Shown here: positions 3,708 through 42,404 of the stretch, piece by piece
Layout of the letters: each line of letters starts with the position of its first letter
Numbering within the stretch: the stretch's first letter is position 1
IMG/VR virus record: IMGVR_UViG_3300021964_000075
Coordinates: 1-57,268 of that record
Origin: a virus
Direction: 5' to 3' (one strand)
Length of the DNA: 57,268 nt
Made by a program: the position numbers and the translations under genes
The notes under the pieces: generated by a model
Seen by the model: the letters and a program-made list of their open reading frames with translations, nothing else
Databases searched by the model: none
What the model was told of the DNA's origin: nothing

Positions 3708-5222
3708 TTAGTAACCTGTTGGGTGGTTGTCATTCTTATAATCAATATCGTAAATTGGTTCAAGTTCACTGAAATTTAGAGTAAGTGTAGTTTGAACCAT
3801 AGAACCACCACCAGCATATGTCATATATGTACCATTTGGTGTATAATTCACACTAACGTTAGTAAGAGCACAAGGTTTAATTTTATTTAAGTATGGATGA
3901 GTGTTACCGTCGGCGGTATCACTACCATCTCCATTATATATGTACTCTAACTGAAATATTTTTGGTGTTCTGAGGAAGATATTTCCAGTTTTTTCAATAA
4001 CTGGGGCAGAGAACTTTTTGAATGTTTTAATAATTTCTCTAACCTGTTCTGCCTCTTTTTCAAATCTTGGTGCAAAATTAAATTGGAACGCAAATGATCT
4101 TAATTTTGGACCACTAAAGAGAAGTTCCATATTTGGGTTGATTGTGAGACCACTTTGTCTTGTGGCAAAAGATGTGTTTCCAATAACATATCCTGCAAGA
4201 AGTGCTGCAACACCATCTTTCTCTTTTTTTGCCTCATTAAGAAATCCTTTGGCACTGTTAAGAGTATCTCCTAGAATTTCTGTTGCTTTGCCCAATTTAT
4301 CATCAAAATTAGCTTCAGAAACACCCTTCAGTAAATCACCAACACTAGCTGCCATTGCTAACTCAATTGCATTTGCATTACTTTCTCCCCAATTTATACC
4401 ATTTTGTGTTCCTAAACCGTTGGTCATTGGAAGAATAATCGTTCCAAGACTTCCTTTTGTTTCTTTGTATCTACCTACTGCAGCACTATTATTATTACCA
4501 GCACTCATAGAACTCACCCAGTCTTGGATGCTTATTTTAATGTAATCATAGGTAATACCAGTAATATCTTCGACAACTTCTAAGTTGACAAGAGGGTACT
4601 TTAAAACACCTACGCTTTCAAATTTAGGTTTTGATGTTGATTCGGTTTTTTTGGAGATATCTTTTGAATCTTCTTCTATTACTGAAGTATTATCTGTAGA
4701 TATTGGTTGATCGGCTACCGGTGAAGAGGATGGTGGTGCATCTTCTTGTCTTTCTGTTTGATCGTCTTCTACCGTGACTGGTGGTGTTACTGGTTCTGTA
4801 GTTACTTTACCGGTAGTAGGACTGACTGTCTGTCTAGTTTTTGGATCAGTAATACCCGGTGTCTTTTGATCAAAAAATCTTTGACTTGCAACCACATAGT
4901 CTCTATTGCTAGGAAAATTTTCGGGATTCTTTAATACTGCAGCCCTATCATTATTAAAAACTTTATAACCTTCTAAAAAGAATGCTTTCTGAACTTCTTT
5001 AACAGAACTCCGAGTATTATTTCTTCTATTATATACATCTGTAAAACTCTGAGGATTATTTAATTTCCAATCACTACCCTTTCCTTCACTTGATGCAATT
5101 AGTACATCTACACCAAAAAGTCCAGAACCAATTGCAAAAACTTCTATTTCTCCAGTTTCGGTATTTACCTCTTGTTTAGTCTGAATCTTATTCCAGGTTC
5201 TATATTGGGGAATTATTGCCAT
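3708..5222 (-). CDS. 48: gp48-like baseplate tail-tube cap protein
   Basis: 504 residues, longer than T4 gp48 (364). gp48 caps the baseplate hub and, with gp54, starts tail-tube polymerisation. The C-terminal half has the tube-like fold signature (LTINPNMELLFSGPKLRSFAF.F.FAPRF..EAEQVREIIKTFKKFSAP, about residues 355-405). Residues about 125-205 form a Pro/Thr/Ser/Glu-rich low-complexity linker that probably explains the extra length. The gene follows a minus-strand late promoter at 5247-5254. Confidence 0.8.
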   Translation of the reverse strand: MAIIPQYRTWNKIQTKQEVNTETGEIEVFAIGSGLFGVDVLIASSEGKGSDWKLNNPQSFTDVYNRRNNTRSSVKEVQKAFFLEGYKVFNNDRAAVLKNPENFPSNRDYVVASQRFFDQKTPGITDPKTRQTVSPTTGKVTTEPVTPPVTVEDDQTERQEDAPPSSSPVADQPISTDNTSVIEEDSKDISKKTESTSKPKFESVGVLKYPLVNLEVVEDITGITYDYIKISIQDWVSSMSAGNNNSAAVGRYKETKGSLGTIILPMTNGLGTQNGINWGESNANAIELAMAASVGDLLKGVSEANFDDKLGKATEILGDTLNSAKGFLNEAKKEKDGVAALLAGYVIGNTSFATRQSGLTINPNMELLFSGPKLRSFAFQFNFAPRFEKEAEQVREIIKTFKKFSAPVIEKTGNIFLRTPKIFQLEYIYNGDGSDTADGNTHPYLNKIKPCALTNVSVNYTPNGTYMTYAGGGSMVQTTLTLNFSELEPIYDIDYKNDNHPTGY

Positions 5223-6894: not shown

Positions 6895-7614
6895 ATGCCT
6901 TTACCAAAAATTGCAACTCCAACTTATGAGTTGACTTTACCCTCTACTAAAAAGAAAATTAAATATAGACCATTTCTTGTTAAAGAAGAGAAACTTCTGG
7001 TTCTTGCTCTTGAAAGTGATGACACAAAACAAATCACTAATGCAATCAGGGCAGTTCTAAAGAGTTGTATTGAAACCAGAGGTGTGAAGGTAGAAACCCT
7101 TCCTACATTTGATATTGAATATCTTTTCTTAAATATTAGAGGTAAGTCTGTTGGTGAAGAAGTTGAAGTAAATATTCTTGCTCCTGACGATGGTGTGACT
7201 GAAATTCCTATTACTATCTTATTGGACGAAATTGAAGTAAAGGAAGGTGAGGGTCATGACAAGAAAATTAAACTTGATGATAGTTTAATGATGGAAATGA
7301 AATATCCGTCACTAGATGAATTTATTAAAAATAATTTTGATGTTAAGGGTGAGGTTGACGTTAATAAATCATTTGAATTGATTGCAGGTTGTATTGATAA
7401 AATCTTTAGTGAAGAAGAAGTTTGGTCTACTGCAGATTGTTCAAAAAAGGAAGTTATTGACTTTTTGGAACAAATGAATTCTGTTCAATTTAAACAAATT
7501 GAAAAGTTTTTTGAGACTATGCCAAAACTTTCTTATGAAGTTGAGGTTACTAATCCCAAGACTGATGTAAAAAGTACTGTCGTCTTGGAGGGCTTATCCA
7601 GTTTTTTCGCATAG
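6895..7614 (+). CDS. 26: gp26-like baseplate hub assembly chaperone
   Basis: 239 residues of the T4 base plate protein family (gp26/gp51 type): PLPKIATPTYELTLPSTKKKIKYRPF at the N terminus and LVKEEKLLVLALES. Family members are assembly factors for the hub and tail. The 3' end carries T TTT TTC two codons before the stop, and the -1 frame after it stays open into the 59-residue reading frame at 7617. That arrangement is typical of tail-assembly chaperones made in short and frameshifted long forms. It lies directly upstream of the long, tape-measure-like gene. Confidence 0.82.
   Translation: MPLPKIATPTYELTLPSTKKKIKYRPFLVKEEKLLVLALESDDTKQITNAIRAVLKSCIETRGVKVETLPTFDIEYLFLNIRGKSVGEEVEVNILAPDDGVTEIPITILLDEIEVKEGEGHDKKIKLDDSLMMEMKYPSLDEFIKNNFDVKGEVDVNKSFELIAGCIDKIFSEEEVWSTADCSKKEVIDFLEQMNSVQFKQIEKFFETMPKLSYEVEVTNPKTDVKSTVVLEGLSSFFA
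7602..7608 (+). promoter_or_regulatory. Candidate -1 programmed frameshift site
   Basis: T TTT TTC in the zero frame (codons TTT 7603-7605 and TTC 7606-7608) is a canonical X-XXY-YYZ slippery heptamer, two codons before the gp26 stop at 7612. A -1 slip reads CGC ATA GGT and continues in frame into the 59-residue ORF, giving a protein of about 300 residues. Confidence 0.55.
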
Positions 7615-7616
7615 GT

Positions 7617-7796
7617 ATGATCCACATGGATCTTGAGAACTACTTCAGGTTAAATTTTGCCCTGATGCAGTATCATAAATATTCATTAACGGAGATTGAA
7701 AACATGATGCCGTGGGAGAGAGACATTTACGTAGCCCTCTTACAGCAACACTTAGAGGAAGAAGAAGAAAAAGCAAAGGCACAACAAAATGGCTAG
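7617..7796 (+). CDS. Small tail-chaperone extension ORF (-1 frame)
   Basis: 59 residues if started at ATG 7617 (MIHMDLENYFRLNFALM...). It includes the motif SLTEIENMMPWERDIYVALLQQHLEEEEEK, which resembles the distal domain of many phage tail-assembly chaperones (MPWER.IY..LL...LEEE). There is no convincing ribosome binding site. The frame is -1 to gp26 and open across the slippery site, so the natural product may be the gp26 fusion. It overlaps the start of the next gene by 8 nt. Confidence 0.7.
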   Translation: MIHMDLENYFRLNFALMQYHKYSLTEIENMMPWERDIYVALLQQHLEEEEEKAKAQQNG

Positions 7797-10380
7797 AGAT
7801 CCTCAAAAACTAAGAAAAGCTTATGAATATAAGTTAGGGAAGGATCTTGCCGATAAGTTAAGTGATGCTCATATTGCATCACTATCAAATTACTATAATC
7901 GTGCTTCAAACGAAGAACAGAGTAAGATTGATAGTGAACTTATAAAGGGAATGGGAGACTTTCTGAATAGTGCCAGAGACCTGGCGAAGGAAGGTTTTGT
8001 TCGTGACCCAAAACTTCCTATTCAGAAGTATCAACCAGAGGATTTGAGTGAAGTTAAGGCAAAGGAAGATGCCTTTCAGAAGTATCAACCAGAAGATAAA
8101 GCCAAAGACGATTTTGTAGAGAGTGTAGATAAGAAACTGGATGAAAAGCTGAGTGAGACTTCTGACTCTATTATGAGTGAGATTGATAAACTCATTGCAG
8201 AGTATCAGAAAAAGGTAGATGATTATAAAAAACCAAAAGAGGAAGAGGAAAAAGTTCCTGAGGGTCTTGATTCTCTTCTAAAAGATATTAGAAGTGAAGT
8301 TGGTGGTGACACTCCTAAGAAGGGCGGTGCTCTTGCAGTTATACCTAAACCAGACAACGCTAAAGAAAAGAAACTTTTAGGTGATGAAGATATTAATCCA
8401 GAAATACTTAAAATTCTTGGTATTGATGACGTTATAGACCTAGATTATGGTGAGTATCATACTCTCTTAAGAGAGTCTATGGTAAAAAATAAGGATAAAT
8501 TTTCAGCCGAGCAACAGGCTCTATTTGCCGAGGAGAGGAGTAGGGTTCGTGGAAAAACAGGTTCATTTAAAGTTAAGTCTAAAAAAATTAATGCACAATC
8601 TTTTGTAGCAAAAACAAAACCAAGTTCTTATGTTAAAAAAGTAACACCATTATTACCATCAGTAACACCACAAGAAACTGAACAACCTATTCAACCCGAG
8701 AGACAGGGGATGGATAAAACTCTTGCATTGATTGCAAGTAAGTTGAATAGTGTTGATAAGAATGTTCAACAAACTACTAGGAATCTTCAGGATAAAGATG
8801 CTGCTGAAAATAAACAGAAAAACCAGGATAGACTTACTGCAGAAAATACAGCTGCTCAAAGAAAGGAAGAGAGAATAGAGAGAGCGGCGGTTCTGGGTGG
8901 GGTAGTTGCAGGTGTGAAGAAAACTGTTAAACCATTAACTGATATGATGGGTGGTTTATTTGATTTCTTCAAGAGACTTGGATTTGCTATGTTTATTATG
9001 GAATTGTTGAAATTCCTTCAAGATCCTGCAAAATATATTAATGGTATTACCAAATGGATAAATCTACAGATTGCCAAATTGGAAATGAAGATAGAAAATT
9101 TTGTTGTTGATCAGATTATCAAACCTACGAATGATATGATAAGAGGTCTTAACACAAAACTAAAAGAGTTTGTGGATGGTATTAATCCGTTCATAGAAGA
9201 GTTCAAAAAACTTCCTGGTATGGGAAATATTCCTAATTTACCAACACCACAAATACCAATAATTGAAGAATCCATTATCAGAGATAAAGTATTCTTAGGA
9301 AGACTTCCAGAGGTAGATGATGATTTTATGAAATTTGATAAGGCACCACCTGCACCAGAACTTCCTGCACCAGGTACAACACAACCTGGAGGTGGGACTA
9401 GGGTGCAACCTCAAGAGACTTTAATGGGACAACAACCTTCTCAATCAGGAAATGGTTTAACCCCACAACAACCTTCTCAATCAGGAAATGGTTTAACCCC
9501 ACAACAAAAAGCCTTTGCTGAGACTGTTAGTTATGCAGAAGGAACATCTGGTAGTGCTGGTTATAACACCTGGTTTGGCGGTCGCACTGATTTGGATCTA
9601 AGTAAACTGACGATCAATCAGGTTGTAGAGGAACAGAAGAAACGTATGAGGGAGAAAGATCCATCAGCACAATTTATAAATGGTGCAGGTCAACCTGATG
9701 CCAGTTATGCTGTTGGTAAATATCAGATGACACATCCAGAAACTTATGCCAAAGCCGCAGGCCTTAATCCGGCAGTAGATAAATTTACCCCAGAAAATCA
9801 GGATAAACTATTCTTATATGGTTACATAATGAAACAAGCCGGTGTGACAGAGGCTGAAATCAATGCTCCTGAAATGTCGGACCAGACTATTGACAAATTG
9901 GCACCAGTGTTTGCATCTTTCCCTAATCTTTTTGGTCCTGATTATAAAGGAAGAGATATTCAAGGAACCAGTTATTATGGTCAGGGGGGTAAATCAAAAG
10001 AACAAATAAAGGAAGTATATAAAAAACAACGAGAAAAAATGCCGACCCAAACTACTGAACCGGCACCCCCACCAACTTCGGCATTACCAATAACTGTACC
10101 CCTAGAAGATGTGAATAGAAGGTTGGAAAAAGATCCAGACCAATTCCTTAAAGATCTAGATGCTGGAAAATTGACCCGTCCTAATCCTTATGCAATAAAC
10201 CCACCAGTTCAAAAAGCTTCTTTGACTACAATTGGAGGTTTGACCGGTGGTGATGCTCCAGGTGTTGCTCTTGCAGCTGCAGGTGGTTCACAAAGTCAAG
10301 TGTTTCCATTTTCTGCAACCAATGGTGCAGATCTAAGTGTACTTTCTACAAAAGAAACTTTACGTGTGGTGGGGACATAA
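7789..10380 (+). CDS. Tape-measure/hub-like tail protein with GH104-like lysozyme domain
   Basis: 863 residues. The N-terminal third is charged and helical (coiled-coil-like, residues 1-130). A hydrophobic stretch follows at about 368-415 (GGVVAGVKKTV..MMGGLFDFFKRLGFAMFIMELLKFL), as in tape-measure proteins. Residues about 577-735 resemble lambda-R-type (GH104) transglycosylases: YAEGTSGSAGYNTWFGG with candidate catalytic Glu584, then ASYAVGKYQMTHPETYAKAAGL. It probably acts in the virion tail, opening peptidoglycan during DNA entry. Two Pro/Gln-rich direct repeats (PSQSGNGLTPQQ) precede the enzyme domain. Confidence 0.7.
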   Translation: MARDPQKLRKAYEYKLGKDLADKLSDAHIASLSNYYNRASNEEQSKIDSELIKGMGDFLNSARDLAKEGFVRDPKLPIQKYQPEDLSEVKAKEDAFQKYQPEDKAKDDFVESVDKKLDEKLSETSDSIMSEIDKLIAEYQKKVDDYKKPKEEEEKVPEGLDSLLKDIRSEVGGDTPKKGGALAVIPKPDNAKEKKLLGDEDINPEILKILGIDDVIDLDYGEYHTLLRESMVKNKDKFSAEQQALFAEERSRVRGKTGSFKVKSKKINAQSFVAKTKPSSYVKKVTPLLPSVTPQETEQPIQPERQGMDKTLALIASKLNSVDKNVQQTTRNLQDKDAAENKQKNQDRLTAENTAAQRKEERIERAAVLGGVVAGVKKTVKPLTDMMGGLFDFFKRLGFAMFIMELLKFLQDPAKYINGITKWINLQIAKLEMKIENFVVDQIIKPTNDMIRGLNTKLKEFVDGINPFIEEFKKLPGMGNIPNLPTPQIPIIEESIIRDKVFLGRLPEVDDDFMKFDKAPPAPELPAPGTTQPGGGTRVQPQETLMGQQPSQSGNGLTPQQPSQSGNGLTPQQKAFAETVSYAEGTSGSAGYNTWFGGRTDLDLSKLTINQVVEEQKKRMREKDPSAQFINGAGQPDASYAVGKYQMTHPETYAKAAGLNPAVDKFTPENQDKLFLYGYIMKQAGVTEAEINAPEMSDQTIDKLAPVFASFPNLFGPDYKGRDIQGTSYYGQGGKSKEQIKEVYKKQREKMPTQTTEPAPPPTSALPITVPLEDVNRRLEKDPDQFLKDLDAGKLTRPNPYAINPPVQKASLTTIGGLTGGDAPGVALAAAGGSQSQVFPFSATNGADLSVLSTKETLRVVGT

Positions 10381-32387: not shown

Positions 32388-35096
32388 ATGGCAAGACTAA
32401 AAAGCGGAAAAGTTTTAAATTCTGATGGGAATTTTATAACTTTAGAAGAAACACAAAGATGGCTTAACAACCCAAGTTTAAATGGTCAGGTATTATCATC
32501 AGATACTGCTGGTAATCGTTTTTGGATTAACCCACCAGCAGGAGCTCAAGGTGGTCCAGGTGCTCAGGGTTCTACAGGTTCAACTGGTCCTCAAGGTCTT
32601 CAAGGACCTCAGGGGCAAGATGGACCTCAAGGTTTTCAAGGTGTTTCTGGAATAAGTGGAAGTCAAGGATTCCAAGGTGTTCAAGGTTCTCAAGGTGCTG
32701 CTGGAACATCAGTAATCATTATTGGATCAGTTCCTGATGTTTATGTAAATCCACCCAACGATCCTCAAATAACATTAAATGCAGCATTTCCTTCTGCAGT
32801 TACTTCAAATGCTGCAATTGATCAAGGATTGGGTGAATTGTGGGTTTATGATGGAGCAACTTGGAATAATGTCGGACAAATTGTAGGCCCTACAGGACCT
32901 CAAGGAAATCAAGGAAATCAAGGATATCAGGGTACACAAGGATCTGTAGGACCTCAAGGTAATGTAGGTGCTCAAGGATTACAGGGGGTTCAAGGTTCTA
33001 CAGGTTTCCAAGGTATATCTGGTGGAGCTGGATTTCAGGGAAATCAGGGTGAACAGGGTTCTGTTGGATCACAAGGAGTTCAAGGTGCTCAGGGATCTCA
33101 AGGTCGTCAAGGTGTTCAGGGATCAGTTGGTGCCACAGGTCCAACGGGTCCTCAAGGGGTCCAAGGTTCTACAGGGTTAAGAGGTTTTCAAGGTTACCAA
33201 GGTCGTCAAGGGGCTCAGGGATCACAAGGTTTTCAAGGTTCTCAAGGTAATGATGGAACATCAGTAAGTATTATTGGCGCAGTTCCTGATGTCAATGTAA
33301 ATCCACCAAATAATCCACAAACAACATTAAATACTGCTTTCCCATCAGCTACTGTAGGAAATGGCGTAATTGATGATGCTACTGGTGATTTATGGGTTCT
33401 TAATTCACAATGGAATAATGTTGGCCAAATTGTAGGTCCACAAGGTTCACAGGGTATTCAAGGTGTTCAAGGTTCACAAGGAAATCAAGGAATACAAGGA
33501 TCTCTAGGATCTCAAGGAGTTCCTGGAATACAAGGTAGTGTTGGTGCACAAGGAGCACAAGGTTCTACCGGTACACAAGGACCACAAGGTTTCCAAGGAG
33601 TACAAGGTGCTCAGGGAGCGGGAGTACAAGGTGCAACTGGAGCAACTGGACCACAAGGTTTTCAAGGTTCTACAGGTGATGTTGGGGCAACTGGGCCCAC
33701 TGGAGCAACTGGACCACAAGGTGTTCAAGGTTCTACGGGTACTGGCGGAGCAACTGGGTCCACTGGACCAGCAGGACCACAAGGTTTCCAAGGAGTTCAA
33801 GGTGCTCAGGGATCACAAGGTCGTCAAGGTCGTCAAGGTTCTACAGGTACTGGTGGAGCAACAGGTCCAACTGGTGCTCAGGGATCTCAAGGTCGTCAAG
33901 GATCTCAAGGTCGTCAAGGATCTCAAGGTCGTCAAGGATCTCAAGGTCGTCAAGGATCACAGGGACAAGGTGGTACATCAGTCACCATTGTAGGATCAGT
34001 TCCATCCGTAACAACATCAAGTCCAAACACAACACTAACTTCTGATGACACTGGATTTTCTTGGTACCCTCCATCAACTGGTAATGGTGTAATTGCAACA
34101 GATACTGGTGATTTATGGGTCTACGATGGATCTGATTGGAATAATGTAGGTCAAATTGTAGGTCCCCAAGGTTTCCAAGGAGTTCAAGGTGCTCAGGGAT
34201 CACAAGGTCGTCAAGGTTCTACAGGTACTGGTGGATCAACTGGACCAACTGGACCAACTGGTGCTCAGGGATCTCAAGGTCGTCAAGGATCTCAAGGTCG
34301 TCAAGGTTCTGCAGGTCTAACAGGTTCTACAGGTTCAACCGGTCCAACGGGTCCTCAAGGTTTACAAGGTCGTCAAGGATCTCAAGGTCGTCAAGGTTCT
34401 ACAGGTTCTACAGGTTCTACAGGTTCAACCGGTCCAACAGGTCCTCAAGGTAACCAAGGTCGTCAAGGATCTCAAGGTCGTCAAGGTTCTACAGGTCCAA
34501 CAGGTCCAACAGGTCCTCAGGGCAACCAAGGAAGACAAGGTTCTCAAGGTCGTCAAGGTGCTGTAGGTGCTCAAGGTTCTACAGGTCCAACAGGTCCAAC
34601 AGGTCCTCAGGGCAACCAAGGAAGACAAGGTTCTCAAGGTCGTCAAGGTTCTACAGGTCCAGCTGGACCTTCTAATGTAATATCTGCATCGGCCACTACT
34701 ACTAATTCAACATTTTATCCAGTATTTGTTGCTGGAACTGGTAATCGAACACCAAGTATTAGAACGTCTTCTGTTGCATTAAGTTTTAATGCTTCCTCTG
34801 GAACTTTATCAGCAACTAATTTTAATTCTGGTTCTGATGAGAGACTTAAAGAAAATGTGGAAACTATTAATAATGCACTTTCTACAATAGAAAAAATACG
34901 TGGTGTTAAATTTAGTTGGAAGTCAAGTGGTAATCAATCAATTGGTGTAATTGCACAAGAAATTGAAGAAATTTTACCAGAACTTGTTGAAGGTGATGAT
35001 AATAAAACTGTAAACTATAGTGGAATTATTGGTGTTCTTGTTGAAGCTGTGAAGGAACTTTCTACAAGAGTAGAGGAATTAGAAAATGATAAATAA
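32388..35096 (+). CDS. Collagen-like tail fibre with S74 intramolecular chaperone
   Basis: 902 residues. After a short attachment domain (1-50) come long Gly-X-Y runs (GPQGxQG, GRQGSQ), which should form collagen-like triple helices. They are interrupted by three copies of a globular module (begins GTSV.IIGSVP, ends [15 protein letters not shown]; about residues 105-170, 290-350 and 525-590). The C-terminal 90 residues are an S74 peptidase/chaperone: Ser816-D-E-R-L-Lys821 is the self-cleavage dyad region, then [18 protein letters not shown] and a terminal coiled coil. The chaperone trimerises the fibre and is then released. Confidence 0.9.
33887..33960 (+). repeat. Tandem 18-bp collagen repeat DNA
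   Basis: At least four near-perfect copies of GGATCTCAAGGTCGTCAA coding G-S-Q-G-R-Q. The same unit recurs around 34260-34400 and 34460-34640. Identical DNA-level copies can expand or contract by slippage or recombination and so change fibre length. Confidence 0.85.
35088..35095 (+). promoter_or_regulatory. Late promoter for DGR target gene
   Basis: GATAAATA overlapping the stop of the collagen-like fibre gene, 76 nt before the target gene start. The leader ends in a strong GGGAGGG ribosome binding site at 35158-35164. Confidence 0.6.
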
Positions 35097-35170: not shown

Positions 35171-35758
35171 ATGGCTATTCAGATTTCAGGAACTACTGTT
35201 ATTGACAACAGTAGGAATATCACTAATTTTGAATCTGTTTCTGGTAATGGAGTAGCTACTCAGGCAGAGGCCGAAGCAGGTACAAATAATGATCAAGTAA
35301 TGACCCCATTAAGGGTCACACAAGCAATCGCAGCTGCAGGAGGCGGTATGGTAGACGACGACATTAACTGGTCAGGGTGCAATGTAGGATGTGCCGTCAG
35401 AGGTGGCGGTAATGTATTCCGTAAAACTACAGGACTCATTTGGATTGTAGCACCATCAACAACACAAGTAGGTTCCACATGGCCTATGGGTTATTGTAAT
35501 GGTGAGGGTGGTGCTACTCCAAATCAAGCCCAAAGAATCACTGGTCGTTCCGGGTGGTTTATTCCTGATCTAGGAATGCTTCAATGTGGTTATGCATGTA
35601 GAACTTATTGGGACAGTTACTCCACGACCAGCTACTGGAGTTCTACTGAGTTCACTACCAGCACTGCGTACGTTGTGTTCTTTAATAGTGGCGGCGCGCT
35701 CGGCGGCAATAAGAGCGGCATCCGCTGTGTTCGTCCGTTTCGGGTCGTGTGCTATTGA
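35171..35758 (+). CDS. DGR target: variable C-type-lectin-fold adhesin
   Basis: 195 residues. N-terminal fibre-association part (IQISGTTVIDNSRNI, then TQAEAEAGTNNDQVMTPLRVTQAI). The C-terminal about 120 residues have the FGE/DUF1566-like C-type lectin pattern used by DGR variable proteins: TGLIWIV, W.P..GML, YWSSTE, AY.V.F..G, and closing CVRPFR. The variable repeat spans codons 151-191. Compared with the template, 17 codons differ, all non-synonymous; most are template Asn codons (AAY) now encoding T, S, F, V, G, L or R. A strong ribosome binding site (GGGAGGG) lies 7 nt upstream. Located directly after the collagen-like fibre gene, so probably the receptor-binding tip or a baseplate adhesin. 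Confidence 0.93.
   Translation: MAIQISGTTVIDNSRNITNFESVSGNGVATQAEAEAGTNNDQVMTPLRVTQAIAAAGGGMVDDDINWSGCNVGCAVRGGGNVFRKTTGLIWIVAPSTTQVGSTWPMGYCNGEGGATPNQAQRITGRSGWFIPDLGMLQCGYACRTYWDSYSTTSYWSSTEFTTSTAYVVFFNSGGALGGNKSGIRCVRPFRVVCY
35621..35744 (+). repeat. DGR variable repeat (VR)
   Basis: 124 bp aligned without gaps to TR at 36292-36415 (offset 671). 98 positions are identical and 26 differ; at every one of the 26 the TR base is A (26 of 47 TR adenines). The 3' end (35725-35744) is 20 bp identical to TR and contains no A, as expected of an initiation/homing region protected from adenine mutagenesis. VR ends 14 nt before the target stop codon. Confidence 0.96.
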
Positions 35759-35799
35759 ACTTTGTACTTTGATTTTTGTATTTTGTAACGAGATTTTTT

Positions 35800-36135
35800 A
35801 TGGTAGAAGAATTGAAAATATATAAAGATACAAGTGAATTAGTTAAAAGAGTTTTTATAATAGTTAAAAATTTTCCTAGAGATTATAAGTATACTATTGG
35901 ATCTAGAATTCAAAATACTGCATTAGATTGTGTTGAGTTGATTTATAAAGCATCTAGACATAAACAAAAGGAAAAAGACTTAGATGAGTTAGTATCTTCT
36001 TTAGATTTTTTATCTTATTTAATTAGAATTTCTAAAGATATGAATATCATTACTGAAAAACAATATGCTCTTTATATTGAAAGAAGTGTTCCTTGTGTAA
36101 AACAAGCATCAGGATGGTTGAGGTCTGCTAAATAG
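35800..36135 (+). CDS. avd: Avd accessory variability determinant (four-helix bundle)
   Basis: 111 residues from ATG 35800 (an upstream in-frame ATG at 35776 adds 8 hydrophobic residues and is less likely). Helical pattern of the four-helix-bundle/Avd family: ELVKRVFIIVKNFPRDYKYTIGSRIQNTALDCVELIYKA, then LVSSLDFLSYLIRISKDMNIITEKQYALYIE. Avd forms a positively charged pentamer that binds the RT and the template RNA and is required for mutagenic homing in the Bordetella phage system. Its place between VR and TR is the canonical one. Confidence 0.88.
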   Translation: MVEELKIYKDTSELVKRVFIIVKNFPRDYKYTIGSRIQNTALDCVELIYKASRHKQKEKDLDELVSSLDFLSYLIRISKDMNIITEKQYALYIERSVPCVKQASGWLRSAK

Positions 36136-36291
36136 TTGAGTCATTCATAATGAGCAGAATATTATTTCATCAAGAAATAGTAGTGTACTCAACTCACGCG
36201 ATTTTCATACCTTAATCGGGTAAAAGTTTTAAATTATATTTAAAACACTTTCTTCTAAAGAGAAACATGTGAATGAAAATCAAATTGATGT
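36135..36291 (+). ncRNA. DGR RNA leader upstream of TR
   Basis: Non-coding A/U-rich stretch between avd and TR. It contains a long-range pair GTTGAGT (36135-36141) with ACTCAAC (36187-36193) and a perfect 9-bp hairpin GTTTTAAAT / ATTTAAAAC (36226-36246, loop TAT). In studied DGRs the RNA flanking TR is needed for priming and RT/Avd binding; a structured role here is inferred from position. Confidence 0.4.
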
Positions 36292-36415
36292 TCCACGAAC
36301 AACTACTGGAGTTCTACTGAGAACAATACCAACAATGCGTACAATGTGAACTTTAATAATGGCAACACGAACAACAACAATAAGAACAACATCAACTGTG
36401 TTCGTCCGTTTCGGG
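36292..36415 (+). repeat. DGR template repeat (TR)
   Basis: 124-bp template copied into VR with adenine mutagenesis. In the VR frame it is rich in AAY codons (18 of 41) placed at the lectin surface positions, with structural codons (Y-W-S-S-T-E, CVRPFR) kept. Same-frame reading runs into GAG TGA, and the RT start lies 12 nt after TR. Transcribed on the plus strand with avd and RT. Confidence 0.96.
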
Positions 36416-36426
36416 AGTGAGAAGTT

Positions 36427-37467
36427 ATGAATGACATCACATTTGAAGAAGTTGTAACAGCATATTACGACTGCAGAAGAAATAAAAGAAATACATCACA
36501 ACAATTAGAATTTGAGTTTCATCTAGAAAAAAATCTCTGGAAACTTTATGAAGAACTAAATCAAGAAATTTTTATTCCAGAAGCACATAATTTTTTCATC
36601 ATAACACATCCCAAACCAAGAGAAGTTTGGTGCTCAAATTTTAGAGATAGAATAGTTCATCATTTAATTTATAATAGAACAAATTATATTGAGAGTGACT
36701 ATATTGATAATACTTTTGCATGTTTAAGAGGAAAAGGAACTTTAAGATGTGCTCAAAAAGTACAAAAAACTATGAGATCTTTATGGAAAGATAAAGATAA
36801 TTACAAATTTCTTCATGTTGACATTGCAAACTTTTTTGTTTCCATTGATAGAGAAATTATTAAGAAGCAATTATATCCAAAAATAGAAAATGAAACTACA
36901 ATAAAGTTAATAGAAATATTTTTAAATCAAAGTCCCACAGAAAACTATTATTATACTGGTGATCCAAAACTTAAAGAATTAATACCTGATAGAAAATCAT
37001 TATTTGGGAAATCTACTGGTCTTACTATTGGAAATTTGACATCTCAAATTTTTGCCAATCATTACTTAAATGAATTTGACTGGTACTGTAAAGAAAATAT
37101 ATCTCAATATTACTTTAGGTATATGGATGATTTATTATTTTTTATTCATAAAGATCAAAAAATATATCAAATTATTGATGATATTAATGATTATTTGGCA
37201 ACTTTAAATATGACTTTAAATTCATCAAAAACAAAACATAATAAACTTGAGCATGGTGTGAATTTTGTTGGATACTTTATTAGACCTTTCTGCAAATATG
37301 TAAGAAATTCAACTAAACAGAGAGCAAAATTGGCAACAGAATGGCAATCAATTAATTCATATTATGGACTCATGAGACAAGCAAACTGTTATAATTTAAG
37401 AAAAAAGATTGCTATTCAAAACAATATAAATATGATAAAATATGAAAAACTGAATCAATTAATATGA
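36427..37467 (+). CDS. DGR reverse transcriptase
   Basis: 346 residues, group-II-intron-like RT of the DGR clade. Motifs: RDRIVHHLIYN (motif 2 region, about 77-87), HVDIANFFVSID with catalytic Asp132, GLTIGNLTSQIFAN at 198-211 (the GxxxGNLxSQ form with SQ typical of DGR RTs), YMDD at 232-235 with the two catalytic Asp, and HGVNFVGYFI. Together with Avd it makes adenine-mutated cDNA from the TR RNA that replaces VR. The ribosome binding site GGGAGTGAG overlaps the end of TR. The stop overlaps the next start (ATGA), coupling it to the downstream modification operon. AT-rich like avd. Confidence 0.96.
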   Translation: MNDITFEEVVTAYYDCRRNKRNTSQQLEFEFHLEKNLWKLYEELNQEIFIPEAHNFFIITHPKPREVWCSNFRDRIVHHLIYNRTNYIESDYIDNTFACLRGKGTLRCAQKVQKTMRSLWKDKDNYKFLHVDIANFFVSIDREIIKKQLYPKIENETTIKLIEIFLNQSPTENYYYTGDPKLKELIPDRKSLFGKSTGLTIGNLTSQIFANHYLNEFDWYCKENISQYYFRYMDDLLFFIHKDQKIYQIIDDINDYLATLNMTLNSSKTKHNKLEHGVNFVGYFIRPFCKYVRNSTKQRAKLATEWQSINSYYGLMRQANCYNLRKKIAIQNNINMIKYEKLNQLI

Positions 37468-38090
37468 ACTTGATAAGCATTTATTCAACTCCAATTTGGC
37501 AAACAGAATATCCAGAATTTGAAGAAAATAAGACACAATTTATTCAAGCAATAAGAGACTTAAAAGAAAAAAGTCCAGAAGGAATTAATAAATCAAATCT
37601 TTTTGGATATCATTCTTCTGAAAGAATTCATGAAGAAGAACCAAGAATTCATCCATTACTTCAATATGTTGGAGAAACGGTAGTTAAGGCAGCAGAAGAT
37701 CTTGGTTTTATTTCAGTTGATGTTGCATTGACTTCTGTTTGGTTTAATATTAATGATAGTCGTCAGTGTATGAATGCAGAACATACTCATGGAGATACAT
37801 TTTCTGGAGTATTTTATCTCAAAGCACCAGAAGGTAGTGGTAAATTAGTTTTGCAAAATCCAGGAATTAACAGATTGTGGCAAGGACTTTCTTTGGTTGA
37901 AAAGAAAAATCAATTTACTGGAGAAAAGATTAGTATTGCTCCAGTAGAAGGTAATATTGTAATATTCCCTTCATATCTTCCTCATTGGGTAGAACCTAAT
38001 GATCATGATGATGAAAGAATTTCAATTTCTTTCAATGCAATTTGCTTACCTGAAGGTTCACTTGGAGTTCCTCAACAAAATGCAGAATAA
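37464..38090 (+). CDS. 2OG-Fe(II) oxygenase family protein
   Basis: 208 residues, start overlapping the RT stop by 4 nt. H107-x-H109-G-D111 (AEHTHGDTFSGVFYLK) gives the HxD metal motif, H174 (LPHWVEP) is the distal ligand, and the Arg in DDERISISF would bind 2-oxoglutarate. This phage family hydroxylates unknown substrates. Being co-translated with the DGR RT suggests it is expressed with the adhesin diversification genes; acting on adhesin or glycan is inference. Confidence 0.8.
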   Translation: MNLISIYSTPIWQTEYPEFEENKTQFIQAIRDLKEKSPEGINKSNLFGYHSSERIHEEEPRIHPLLQYVGETVVKAAEDLGFISVDVALTSVWFNINDSRQCMNAEHTHGDTFSGVFYLKAPEGSGKLVLQNPGINRLWQGLSLVEKKNQFTGEKISIAPVEGNIVIFPSYLPHWVEPNDHDDERISISFNAICLPEGSLGVPQQNAE

Positions 38091-38889
38091 GCAATATTAT
38101 TTTATCTCTGGACTTCCAAGATCAGGTTCTACACTACTTTCTGGAATATTAAAACAAAATCCAGAGTTTTATGCAGATATAACTTCGCCAGTATCTGGAA
38201 TTATTCAAAGCACAATTAATGGAATTACTGGAAGTGAAAATAATCATAATGTCAATGAAGAAAGAAGAAAATCTGTTATTCATGGAATCTTTGATGGTTA
38301 TTACTCATCCATAGAAAACCCAGTAATTTTTGATACTTCAAGAGGATGGACAAGTCAAACACCAACACTTAAAGCACTTTTTCCTTACACCAAAATCTTA
38401 TGTTGTGTAAGAGATATTGGATGGATTTTGGATTCCTTTGAAAGAATTTCTGCAAAAAATCCATTTCATACAAATACATTAATTGCACAAGAACACAATA
38501 CAAATGTCTTTTCAAGATGTGATGCAATGATGAGTAAAGAAGGTGGAATAGTCATGAGTGTCTGGGCACTACTTCATGAAGGTTATGCAATGAATCCGAA
38601 TATGATTAAGTTGATTGAATATGAGGACTTGTGTAAGACTCCAGAGAAAACTATAAGATCAATTTACAAATTCATTGATAAACCATACTATGATCATGAT
38701 TTTGATAATGTAGAATACTCAAATGAAAATTTTGATTTATCATGCAATCTAAAAGACCTACACACAGTAAAGAGAAAAGTAGAGTGGATTGAGAGAAAAT
38801 CTATTTTACCTCAAGATGTTTGGGAAAAGTATTCTAATATGGAATTCTGGAGACAAACAAACAAAAAACCTACATTAGATTATAACTGA
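38080..38889 (+). CDS. Sulfotransferase
   Basis: 269 residues from ATG 38080 (overlaps the previous gene by 11 nt; upstream in-frame ATGs lie deep inside the oxygenase gene). PAPS-dependent sulfotransferase signature: YYFISGLPRSGSTLLSGIL at residues about 6-24 is the 5'-phosphosulfate loop, and ILCCVRDIGWILDSF (about 105-119) the 3'-phosphate binding segment; IEYEDLC.TPEKTI.SIY..I follows. It would transfer sulfate from host PAPS to a sugar or protein hydroxyl. Confidence 0.85.
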   Translation: MQNKQYYFISGLPRSGSTLLSGILKQNPEFYADITSPVSGIIQSTINGITGSENNHNVNEERRKSVIHGIFDGYYSSIENPVIFDTSRGWTSQTPTLKALFPYTKILCCVRDIGWILDSFERISAKNPFHTNTLIAQEHNTNVFSRCDAMMSKEGGIVMSVWALLHEGYAMNPNMIKLIEYEDLCKTPEKTIRSIYKFIDKPYYDHDFDNVEYSNENFDLSCNLKDLHTVKRKVEWIERKSILPQDVWEKYSNMEFWRQTNKKPTLDYN

Positions 38890-38890
38890 C

Positions 38891-40603
38891 ATGAACATTT
38901 TAGGACTTTATGGTGGATTTGATTGGGATGCAAATAAATCCTTTGATGAATATCAAGATCTAACATGGACACATGATTCAGGAGCAACACTAATTTCTAA
39001 TGAAAATCATGTTACAAGTATTTCACAAGAAAGACTTACCAGAATTAAATACGATGGAAACTTTCCACAGAATTCAGTAGATTATTGTTTATCAGCCGGA
39101 AATTTATCTTATGAAGATATTGATTTAGTTTGTGTTCCTTCAATGTGTCTTACTATTTGGTATAAACAATATTATGAGGGAACCATTCATACCAAATTAA
39201 ATACATTATTTCCCAATGCAAAACTAAAGTTTGTTTCTCATCACTTAAGTCATGCAGCATCTGCAGTATTCTCATCAGATTTTAATGAGGGTTCTTTTTT
39301 AGTTCTTGATGGTGCTGGTTCACTTTTATATGCTCATAATTACCAAGATGTAAAGCATGTTGAGACTAATTCAATAGGATATTTTAATAAAGAAAAAGGA
39401 ATTTTTAGATTCTTTCCAGGTCTTCCAAATGTCAATGAATTTGGTTCTTATTATCACTCATTGTCCCACAAAATCTATTGTGAAAAAATACAAAGACAAA
39501 TTAATGGTCATGATGAAAAATATAGAGAATCTTGGGATGGTAAAATCATGGGACTTTCTGCATATGGAAGTCATTTAAACTTTACAGAAGAACTCAAAGA
39601 CTATCAACTCTCAAAAGATCTTGTTTATGAAGATGTTCCTTATGTGACTTTTGATAGTAGACCCTATAAAGAAAATCATACCTTTAAAAATCCAGATGAA
39701 AAAGCATATATTCTCCAAAGAAATTTTGAATGTGCTTTGATTGATTATGTAACCGAACTGAAAGAAAAATCATATCTTGATGATTATATTTGTCTTGCTG
39801 GTGGTTCTTTCCTAAATGTTCTTGGGAATAGTCTTTTAAAACAAAGTGGTTTATTTGAAGATATTCATGTTCCACCATATCCAAATGATGTAGGACTACA
39901 TTTTGGTGCTGCTTGTTTTGGCGCATTCCAAAATAAAGAAGAAATTAATCTTCCAAATAATATTGCACTTCTTGGGAAAGAATATACACAAGACACTATT
40001 GAACAACAATTAATAAGAGGTGATCTGAACTATCAGAAGTATGAAAGCTTTGAAGAACTTTGTGATTTTACTGCAAAGGAACTCAATAAAAACAAAATTA
40101 TTGGCTGGTTCCAGAATAGAAGTGAATTTGGTCCAAGAGCATTAGGATCTAGATCACTTCTAATGCATCCTGGTCCAGCAAAAAATAAGGACATCATGAA
40201 CTCTAGAGTGAAACATAGAGAATACTGGAGACCTTTTGCTGGTATTATTCTTGAAGAACATCTTAATGATTACTTTGAAGAAGATTTCTGTTCTCCTTAT
40301 ATGTTGTATTCACTTACAGTAAAAGAAGAAAAGAGAGGTGAGATTGCTGCCATTACTCATGTAGATAATACCTGTAGAATTCAAACAGTTACCAAAGAAC
40401 TTCAACCAGAAGTTACTACATTGATTCAAAAGTTTAAAGAAGTTTCTGGTATTCCTGTAGTTCTTAACACTTCATTTAATGATAACGGAGAACCTATCGT
40501 AGAAACACCAGAAGATGCGATCAAGGCATTTAATAATCTTGATATTGATTACTTGGTCATTGGAAACTATATTGTCAAAAAAAATGAGGTTGTATATTCA
40601 TGA
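38891..40603 (+). CDS. Carbamoyltransferase (NodU/CmcH family)
   Basis: 570 residues. N-terminal Kae1-like domain with HHLSHAASAVFSS (about 116-128; metal-binding His) and LVLDGAGS; C-terminal domain with GWFQNRSEFGPRALGSRSLLMHP (about 412-434) and NTSFNDNGEPIVETPEDA (ATP/carbamoyl-adenylate site). These enzymes use carbamoyl phosphate and ATP to carbamoylate a sugar hydroxyl, as in Nod factors and cephamycins. Starts 1 nt after the sulfotransferase stop, inside the same operon. Confidence 0.92.
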   Translation: MNILGLYGGFDWDANKSFDEYQDLTWTHDSGATLISNENHVTSISQERLTRIKYDGNFPQNSVDYCLSAGNLSYEDIDLVCVPSMCLTIWYKQYYEGTIHTKLNTLFPNAKLKFVSHHLSHAASAVFSSDFNEGSFLVLDGAGSLLYAHNYQDVKHVETNSIGYFNKEKGIFRFFPGLPNVNEFGSYYHSLSHKIYCEKIQRQINGHDEKYRESWDGKIMGLSAYGSHLNFTEELKDYQLSKDLVYEDVPYVTFDSRPYKENHTFKNPDEKAYILQRNFECALIDYVTELKEKSYLDDYICLAGGSFLNVLGNSLLKQSGLFEDIHVPPYPNDVGLHFGAACFGAFQNKEEINLPNNIALLGKEYTQDTIEQQLIRGDLNYQKYESFEELCDFTAKELNKNKIIGWFQNRSEFGPRALGSRSLLMHPGPAKNKDIMNSRVKHREYWRPFAGIILEEHLNDYFEEDFCSPYMLYSLTVKEEKRGEIAAITHVDNTCRIQTVTKELQPEVTTLIQKFKEVSGIPVVLNTSFNDNGEPIVETPEDAIKAFNNLDIDYLVIGNYIVKKNEVVYS

Positions 40604-41391
40604 AACCAATACATGTATTTTTAAGACACTGCTATTATTCCAAACTTCAAGAACTTCCAACAAGGAACAGACCAGTTTGGTTCAACAAAGAAAAGGTATT
40701 TGAGAACTTTAAGAACACAATAGATCCAGAACTTGCTGATTATACTATTGTGTATGATGAACACTTTGGTACTGTTGAAGATACTTTTCTTAAAGATGAA
40801 AAGAATGTAGAAATTATCAACTGTGGAAAAGAGACTACAAGTTTCTTAAAGACACTGGATATTGTTCAATCTAAAAAATTTAATGATAATAAGATTATAT
40901 ATTTTTTAGAAGACGATTATCTACATCGTCCAAACTGGTGTAGTGTAATTCTTGAAGGATTAAATGTTAAACAATTTGATATCAGTTATATTAGTCTAAC
41001 TGACTTTGATTTTCTTTATGGTTTTGAGGAATACAATAAACTCTTACATACTAAAACCACTCATTGGAAGTCTTCTAGTGGAACAACAAATACTTTTGCA
41101 ACTAGATATAAGACACTAAAGGAAGATTTGGATGTTCATAAGCATTATTCATTGAATCCTTATATTCCAGAATTGGACGGACAAAAAATGATTGATCATG
41201 AGTTTTCAATTGATTTTGATAAGTTTGTTCAATTATTGGCAGAAAGAGATAGATTATTAATTTCTCCCATTCCGGGATATGCAACTCATTGTCAATATGG
41301 TAAAGAAATTGCAGATCACTTGTCTCCATGTATCAGGTGGGAAGACTATCTAAATATTCCCAAATCAAATAATACTTTATTATATTCATGA
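40600..41391 (+). CDS. Glycosyltransferase-like protein (GT-A-like)
   Basis: 263 residues, overlapping both neighbours by 4 nt. KIIYFLEDDYLHRPNWCSVILEG (about 103-125) looks like the nucleotide-sugar DxD region of GT-A glycosyltransferases; HWKSSSGTTNTFATRY follows. Substrate unknown. The operon context (sulfate, carbamoyl, second glycosyltransferase) supports a glycan role. Confidence 0.6.
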   Translation: MKPIHVFLRHCYYSKLQELPTRNRPVWFNKEKVFENFKNTIDPELADYTIVYDEHFGTVEDTFLKDEKNVEIINCGKETTSFLKTLDIVQSKKFNDNKIIYFLEDDYLHRPNWCSVILEGLNVKQFDISYISLTDFDFLYGFEEYNKLLHTKTTHWKSSSGTTNTFATRYKTLKEDLDVHKHYSLNPYIPELDGQKMIDHEFSIDFDKFVQLLAERDRLLISPIPGYATHCQYGKEIADHLSPCIRWEDYLNIPKSNNTLLYS

Positions 41392-42404
41392 GTACTGTAA
41401 TTGTTATTAGTGGTGGAGTCGGGAGAGCAATAGCAGCAATACCAGCACTTCTAAAATATCATAAAAATCATCTAGATGAAGAGTGGTATGTGATGGTTCA
41501 TGGTTGGGATTTTATGTTCTGGGGATTTCCAGAACTTCAGGAAAGAACATTTAATCCTGATGATAAGTCGGTGTTTAAAAATTACTTTTGGAATGCTACT
41601 AAAGTTCTCTCACCAGAACCATATTGTCTTCCTGCATACTATAGGAATGAGATCTCATTAAGAGAAGCATTTGATATTCAAATTAATGGTTCCACTGATG
41701 AAGATTTACCAGAGATGCAATTAAAACTCTCTATGACTGAAATTAGAAATGGTCATAGAGTCATTGCAGAAGCAAAGAACCAACAAAAGAAAAATAAAAC
41801 CATAGTAATTCAACCTTATGGAAGTGCGGCACTCATGTGTCCATTAGAAATCTATGACGAAACTTTAAGATCCATTCCACAAAAAATGTATCTTACTCTG
41901 GTCAAAAAACTATCAAAAGATTATAATATCATCTATATGGGTGCAAAGGAGTTTTATGATGGAAAAACATATAAACCAGATCCAGATCCATCATTAAGAG
42001 ACTGGGCAGGAGTGATTAAAGTGGCAGACTATTTTATTGGGTGTGACAGTTGTGGACAACACTTTGCAAAGGCAGTAGGTCAAAATGCCTCTGTAATGGT
42101 TGCAGGAACCCATAAGAACAACACCACATACCCTGATACATTTCATATCATTGAGAGGGATCATAAGTTTCACCCAGATGCTATGAGAGTTTCACAAATT
42201 CAAGGACAACTTTCTACAAGATTGAATGAAGAAAGGTATATGTTCACTGATGAAGAGATTGAGAGCGCCTATCAAACTATTATTCAAAGGATTGAAGGTG
42301 AAAAGAAAGTTGAGATTAATGAGATTGAAGAATGGAAAACCAATTTGAATCCTCCTAGTCCTGGGAGGATTCAGTTAGATCAACAAAATTTACTTTATGA
42401 CTAA
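41388..42404 (+). CDS. GT-B/GT9-like glycosyltransferase
   Basis: 338 residues. Opening VIVISGGVGRAIAAIPALLKYHK (Rossmann-like first strand and helix), and later NKTIVIQPYGSAALM.PLEIYDE and VADYFIGCDSCGQHFAKAVG (about 215-240), as in heptosyltransferase-type GT-B folds where a Gly-rich turn and acidic residue bind the nucleotide sugar. Ends with PPSPGRIQLD, encoded over an inverted repeat (CTCCTAGTCCTGGGAG). Overlaps the previous gene by 4 nt. Confidence 0.62.
   Translation: MSTVIVISGGVGRAIAAIPALLKYHKNHLDEEWYVMVHGWDFMFWGFPELQERTFNPDDKSVFKNYFWNATKVLSPEPYCLPAYYRNEISLREAFDIQINGSTDEDLPEMQLKLSMTEIRNGHRVIAEAKNQQKKNKTIVIQPYGSAALMCPLEIYDETLRSIPQKMYLTLVKKLSKDYNIIYMGAKEFYDGKTYKPDPDPSLRDWAGVIKVADYFIGCDSCGQHFAKAVGQNASVMVAGTHKNNTTYPDTFHIIERDHKFHPDAMRVSQIQGQLSTRLNEERYMFTDEEIESAYQTIIQRIEGEKKVEINEIEEWKTNLNPPSPGRIQLDQQNLLYD

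Follow-up and report, generated by a model that had tools for sequence, protein, structure and literature searches.

A complete diversity-generating retroelement (DGR) that diversifies a lectin very probably resides in the genome of a T4-like cyanophage, as one member of a family that usually lies beside a 2OG-oxygenase gene and has been deleted repeatedly; the probability of this reading is put at roughly 0.93. The stretch of DNA analysed, referred to here as the window, comprises the last 57,268 bases of IMGVR_UViG_3300021958_000028, an IMG/VR contig of 125,107 bp. The cassette occupies positions 35171-37467 on the + strand, where a target gene with its VR is followed by avd, TR and the gene for the reverse transcriptase (RT), and its open reading frames are intact. 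A first-pass annotation, made from the letters alone, had described these parts in this canonical order and had placed a collagen-like fibre with an S74 chaperone ahead of the target. Its coordinates are correct and every part is confirmed, including the fibre, whose ORF at 32388-35096 matches Pfam Collagen (4e-74, repeats) and Peptidase_S74 (5e-16). The features are the following:

32388-35096, + strand: collagen-like fibre with S74 intramolecular chaperone, directly upstream of the target (Pfam)
35171-35758, + strand: DGR target gene, 195 aa, with an N-terminal tail-fibre-type repeat and a predicted C-terminal C-type-lectin-like (Lcl_C/DUF1566-like) domain
35621-35744, + strand: VR at the 3' end of the target, 124 nt; 26 of 26 mismatches to TR lie at TR adenines
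35726-35744, + strand: invariant VR 3' end (TGTGTTCGTCCGTTTCGGG), putative IMH position; TR copy at 36397-36415
35800-36135, + strand: avd (accessory variability determinant), ATG start, 111 aa; Pfam bAvd, PHROG_3206
36133-36429, + strand: structured template RNA region, comprising a hairpin-bearing 5' spacer, the TR and a closing stem
36292-36415, + strand: TR, 124 nt, with 18 AAY codons in the target's frame
36427-37467, + strand: DGR reverse transcriptase, 346 aa; IGNLTSQ, YMDD; PHROG_1423

VR and TR are 79% identical over 124 nt without gaps. Adenine accounts for 47 of the 124 TR positions, and the confinement of all 26 mismatches to these has a hypergeometric P of 3.2e-14; this A-only pattern, together with Avd and the placement of the RT in a tree, bears out the identity of the cassette as a DGR. 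Read in the target's frame, TR contains a single codon (AAG) able to become a stop, and free change at all of its adenines would give ~10^27 possible protein variants as computed from the codons, a number far above any real sampling. The two repeats share identical 19-nt 3' ends and diverge right after CGGG. This shared end is found in just two copies in the 125-kb contig, one in VR and one in TR, and by analogy with Bordetella phage BPP-1 it is the candidate IMH.

What kind of phage carries the cassette? The contig encodes a gp43 that is 74% identical to that of Synechococcus phage RN05-S, as well as uvsX, gp41 and NrdAB, and the T4-type families gp32, gp59, gp54 and gp19 are present in the window itself. 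A search of the carrier for the Gp23 family gave no match, the controls were likewise without a match, and the contig is partial. The T4-type head genes (gp23, gp20) are either absent from it or were missed. On the strength of its core genes the carrier is a T4-like cyanophage, as the first-pass annotation had proposed. Elsewhere, contig L149 has a nicotinamide phosphoribosyltransferase ORF of 783 aa (6973-9321), the middle of which (~267-615) matches segments common to ribonucleotide reductase (RNR), thymidylate synthase and PhoH-like families and is possibly an intein.

Relatives of the cassette and the target lectin

A search for the cassette in other cyanophages found five further lineages that carry this RT, all of them uncultured contigs (the record containing the window, L002, was left out of the count). 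Identity to the window RT is 94% for L003/L004, 73% for L153 and for L154/L155, 61% for L047/L156, and 60% for L157. The order of target, avd, TR and RT, followed by the same 2OG-oxygenase gene, recurs in L003, L153, L155, and L157. T4-like tail genes were seen where the contig is long enough: those of L155 and L047 include a T4-like long tail-fibre protein and a tail-tube gene, and that of L157 has a weak match to the latter. In the window, the block downstream of the cassette (37464-42404) consists of 2OG oxygenase, sulfotransferase-like, carbamoyltransferase-like and glycosyltransferase-like ORFs, all named by eye except the oxygenase, and its gene order is largely kept in relatives.

VR/TR mismatches fall at TR adenines at 28 of 28 positions in L003, 20 of 21 in L155, 21 of 23 in L157 (with one 3-nt gap), and 12 of 12 in L047, whose contig begins inside TR. 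L153 is different, in that its TR (3860-3984) is 26% adenine against 31-39% in the others, and A-only changes do not explain its VR. The avd and RT genes of L153 are intact despite this adenine-poor TR, and either decay or overwriting of the template is possible; overwriting is not claimed here, since the sites at which this TR departs from that of L155 show a weak enrichment at adenines (16 of 27). L047 also has an unusual layout, with the target (2079-2561) downstream of the RT rather than upstream, and a small ORF of the same contig (3786-4259) ends in ARPFKLVCF, resembling the lectin C-terminus. A weak match in L020 was discarded as spurious.

The C-terminus of the target matches Pfam Lcl_C weakly (8.2e-5, under the family cut-off). 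An AlphaFold2 model of residues 60-195, built on an alignment of 45 relatives, has a pLDDT of 81.8 for the lectin domain; its closest structure is the C-terminal domain of Legionella Lcl (8q4e, Z 12.7, VIA), followed by Bdellovibrio Bd2740 (Z 9.0) and animal C-type lectins (Z ~7). The C-type lectin fold suggested in the first-pass annotation is borne out by this model, and the VR is predicted to fall within the C-terminal C-type-lectin-like domain. The N-terminus has a profile match to the repeats of a T4-type long-tail-fibre proximal subunit (9x3r, 1.6e-6) and a PHROG match to tail collar fibre. The S74 fibre upstream and the gp34-like N-terminal tail-fibre repeat together suggest that the target is the receptor-binding tip.

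The target could instead be another lectin-like product, such as a protein that decorates the head or baseplate, or one secreted or displayed on the surface during infection. It is a free-standing gene whose place on the virion is deduced, the L047 target adjoins no fibre gene on its contig, and the targets of L153, L155, and L157 have different N-termini, all of which would suit such a role. However, an S74-type fibre ORF stands directly upstream in the window and in L005, L127, and L014, with a single gene intervening in L155 (assigned by Pfam in the window only, and by sequence likeness in the other four), and the N-terminal matches are to T4-type proximal tail-fibre repeats and tail collar fibre. 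A role away from the fibre tip is therefore unlikely, and the receptor-binding tip is retained as the preferred reading.

Template RNA and copying into the VR

Between the avd stop codon and the start of the RT gene, the sequence folds more stably than its shuffled versions (z -3.0). When seven helices, belonging to the 5' spacer and the closing stem, were followed through five lineages, 94.7% of the alignment cells were paired, as against 40-52% with the partners slid, a share that is favoured by deriving the structure from the same alignment. The stronger point is the presence of compensatory changes at 16 of the 46 pairs across the five lineages. One stem pairs the spacer with the bases immediately 5' of the RT start and encloses the whole TR. 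Rfam has no RNA family that matches the template RNA region. The compensatory changes support the placing of TR in a conserved structured RNA, and this covarying RNA is a further example of a template RNA with a structured spacer 5' of TR.

Has TR been copied into VR since these lineages separated? The TRs of the window and L003 differ at 2 of 122 positions, and at both, each VR matches its own TR in the sense expected of A-changing copying. At the 5' edge, one lineage has A in both TR and VR and the other has T in both; at position 99, the window has T in both, and L003 has A in TR and G in VR. Each VR follows its own TR, therefore TR-to-VR copying took place after the lineages split. This is direct evidence of adenine-changing copying after the split, although it does not by itself date that copying. 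The lectin domains of the two phages are 81% identical outside the VR and 51% inside it. Ongoing diversification is not seen in the assembled consensus: L003 and L004 are near-identical contigs, as are L154 and L155, and within each pair the VRs are the same.

If the cassette works as does the DGR of BPP-1, the avd-TR-RT transcript would fold, RT and Avd would copy the TR RNA into cDNA with misincorporation at adenines, and the cDNA would take the place of the VR, beginning at the GC-rich 3' end of the latter, so that the lectin acquires new surfaces. The later steps are less certain: the lectin may be shown on the tail fibre or its tip, where the variable face might bind the cyanobacterial surface, and progeny phages might thereby vary in adhesion. 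The DGR of the window is probably still active.

Losses of the cassette

Three relatives have apparently lost the cassette and retain scars of it. In L127, the target and most of avd are fused to the final RT codons, which we read as the trace of a deletion. In L014/L015 the target is kept, with a VR whose 3' end is intact, whereas avd is reduced to roughly twelve codons and the RT to a short tail; compared with the window TR, the L014 VR differs at 33 adenines and at 2 other positions, as expected if a similar TR had written it before it became frozen. In L005 (5587-7977) and L006, four lectin genes stand in tandem, and what is left of the RT 3' end comes after them. Identity among the four paralogues is 67-78% outside the VR and 21-44% within it, and the array has the look of DGR output that was frozen once the cassette had gone. 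The losses and their scars indicate that the cassette is old in this phage group and dispensable; the L127, L014/L015, and L005/L006 contigs are fragments, and the cassette could sit elsewhere in those genomes. A more tentative idea is that the locus switches between a DGR rewriting one lectin and, after its loss, frozen tandem variants that archive past DGR output; this is possible but rather doubtful.

A T4 late-promoter-like motif, TATAAATA, lies at window position 37425 within the RT 3' end, 39 nt before the start of the 2OG-oxygenase gene. The stretch of RT 3' end bearing this motif or a close variant is what the three deletion lineages have all retained, perhaps because it is required by the gene that follows. 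It was also considered whether the RT 3' end common to L005, L014, and L127 represents an ancestral promoter into which the RT grew. Deletion scars are the better reading, because the same residues are kept in the distant RTs of L047 and L157, and because L127 retains further RT codons fused to avd.

Might the DGR of the window be silent too, once active and with intact-looking genes, but with a frozen VR and a cassette heading for deletion? The deletions in L014/L015, L127, and L005/L006, with their avd and/or RT remnants, the identical VRs of the near-identical contig pairs, and the L153 TR, which no longer accounts for its VR, would all fit with silence. By contrast, the ORFs and RT motifs of the window are all intact, TR retains its 47 adenines and 18 AAY codons, the TR-VR pairs have tracked each other since the split from L003, and the RNA structure has been kept by compensatory changes across lineages. 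In addition, a long-frozen VR should gather some non-A differences, as that of L014 may have done, and the window VR has none. Silence in the window is thus quite improbable, and an active DGR remains the favoured reading.

The reverse transcriptase family and known systems

The window Avd matches Pfam bAvd (4.8e-19) and PHROG_3206, Avd of DGR (9.9e-26); its match to NCBIfam DivGenRetAVD has an E-value of 9.3e-18, but scores 64.5 bits against a cut-off of 80. The RT matches PHROG_1423 (5.7e-78), and its best PDB match is 8ub7 (8.5e-26), deposited as a reverse transcriptase and presumably that of the BPP-1 DGR; group II intron RTs match far less well. The motifs IGNLTSQ, with SQ in motif 4, and YMDD are of the DGR type, as first noted. 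In a tree of 34 sequences that included DGR RTs, group II introns and six cyanophage RTs, the DGR RTs split from the group II introns (support 99/98), with the window RT inside the DGR clade; the first-pass annotation thereby passes the first of its own two tests, which turned on this placement. The six cyanophage RTs are monophyletic (100/100) and group with the DGRs of proteobacterial phages, Bacteroides phages and others, apart from those of Anabaena and Acaryochloris. Weak PADLOC and NCBIfam matches to RT families would favour an RT from a defence system (retron, DRT/UG) or a group II intron, with the repeat being incidental. There is practically no chance of this: no NCBIfam RT model reaches its cut-off, motif 4 is IGNLTSQ and not QGxxxSP, Avd is present, and the tree and the A-only VR/TR pattern refute such an identity.

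From ~85,000 bacterial and archaeal species genomes, the RT matches among the 80 loci listed are all at ≤40% identity, and no cyanobacterium is among them. Similarly, in a collection of 50,697 phage records that includes hundreds of Synechococcus phages, no cyanophage is among the RT matches listed, nor among the Avd matches. Judged by sequence, the cyanophage RTs are a distinct DGR family, all members of which come from contigs of uncultured cyanophages.

Picocyanobacteria and the T4-like phages that infect them are a main model for studying how viruses and hosts coevolve in natural waters. To our knowledge, there is no good explanation of how T4-like cyanophages keep up as cell surfaces change, and this DGR family would offer a concrete mechanism. 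The A-only footprint lies in a known VR stretch of 122 nt and is readable directly from existing metagenome reads, and the repeated losses permit phages with and without targeted hypermutation to be compared.

DGRs are reported to be absent from Synechococcus and Prochlorococcus genomes (PMC7517822), and for this reason a host origin of the cassette is not supported. DGRs of phages, including those with receptor-binding targets, are well known (PMC8144416, PMC10743442; BPP-1). The same kind of metagenomes was mined in PMC8144416, the main text of which makes no mention of myoviruses, Synechococcus, or Prochlorococcus. A search of the open-access literature on DGRs with cyanophage, cyanomyovirus or Kyanoviridae found no description of a DGR in T4-like cyanophages, which agrees with the first-pass annotation, whose author knew of none; among the phage matches listed, none is from an isolated cyanophage. 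Large DGR catalogues drawn from the same public metagenomes may list this RT unnamed. The type of DGR is itself known; what is new here is the monophyletic cyanophage family, the agreement of each VR with its own TR in a sister lineage, the losses with scars and the four tandem lectin paralogues beside one of them, and the covarying template RNA.

How does the cassette compare with known systems? The DGR of BPP-1 (mtd-avd-TR-brt) has the same gene order, a lectin-fold target with a 3' VR, A-specific differences and a related RT. However, its RT is 29% identical to that of the window and lies elsewhere in the DGR tree. About 144 nt separate TR from brt, whereas the window TR ends 11 nt before the RT, and the long spacer of BPP-1 is on the other side of TR from the structured spacer of the window, which is upstream. 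Moreover, BPP-1 is not T4-like, and its target is Mtd rather than an Lcl_C/DUF1566-like protein. DGRs of filamentous and other cyanobacteria (Anabaena, Acaryochloris) show that DGR machinery exists in the cyanobacterial world, but their RTs are ~31% identical and on another branch, and their neighbours are formylglycine-enzyme-type proteins, which are probably the targets.

The nearest RTs from annotated phages, among the matches listed, are those of Burkholderia phage Magia, Shewanella phage QDWS and Pseudomonas phage DGRs, at 36-40% identity. Their Avd proteins are 27-35% identical to that of the window, TR-like sequence lies directly upstream of the RT, and related IMG/VR loci have DUF1566/Lcl-type targets ending in YWSST...VRAVRR. 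In contrast, the cyanophage RTs are a clade by themselves (100/100), the flanking genes are unrelated, and the DGRs of Magia and LPPA56 are near tyrosine recombinase genes.
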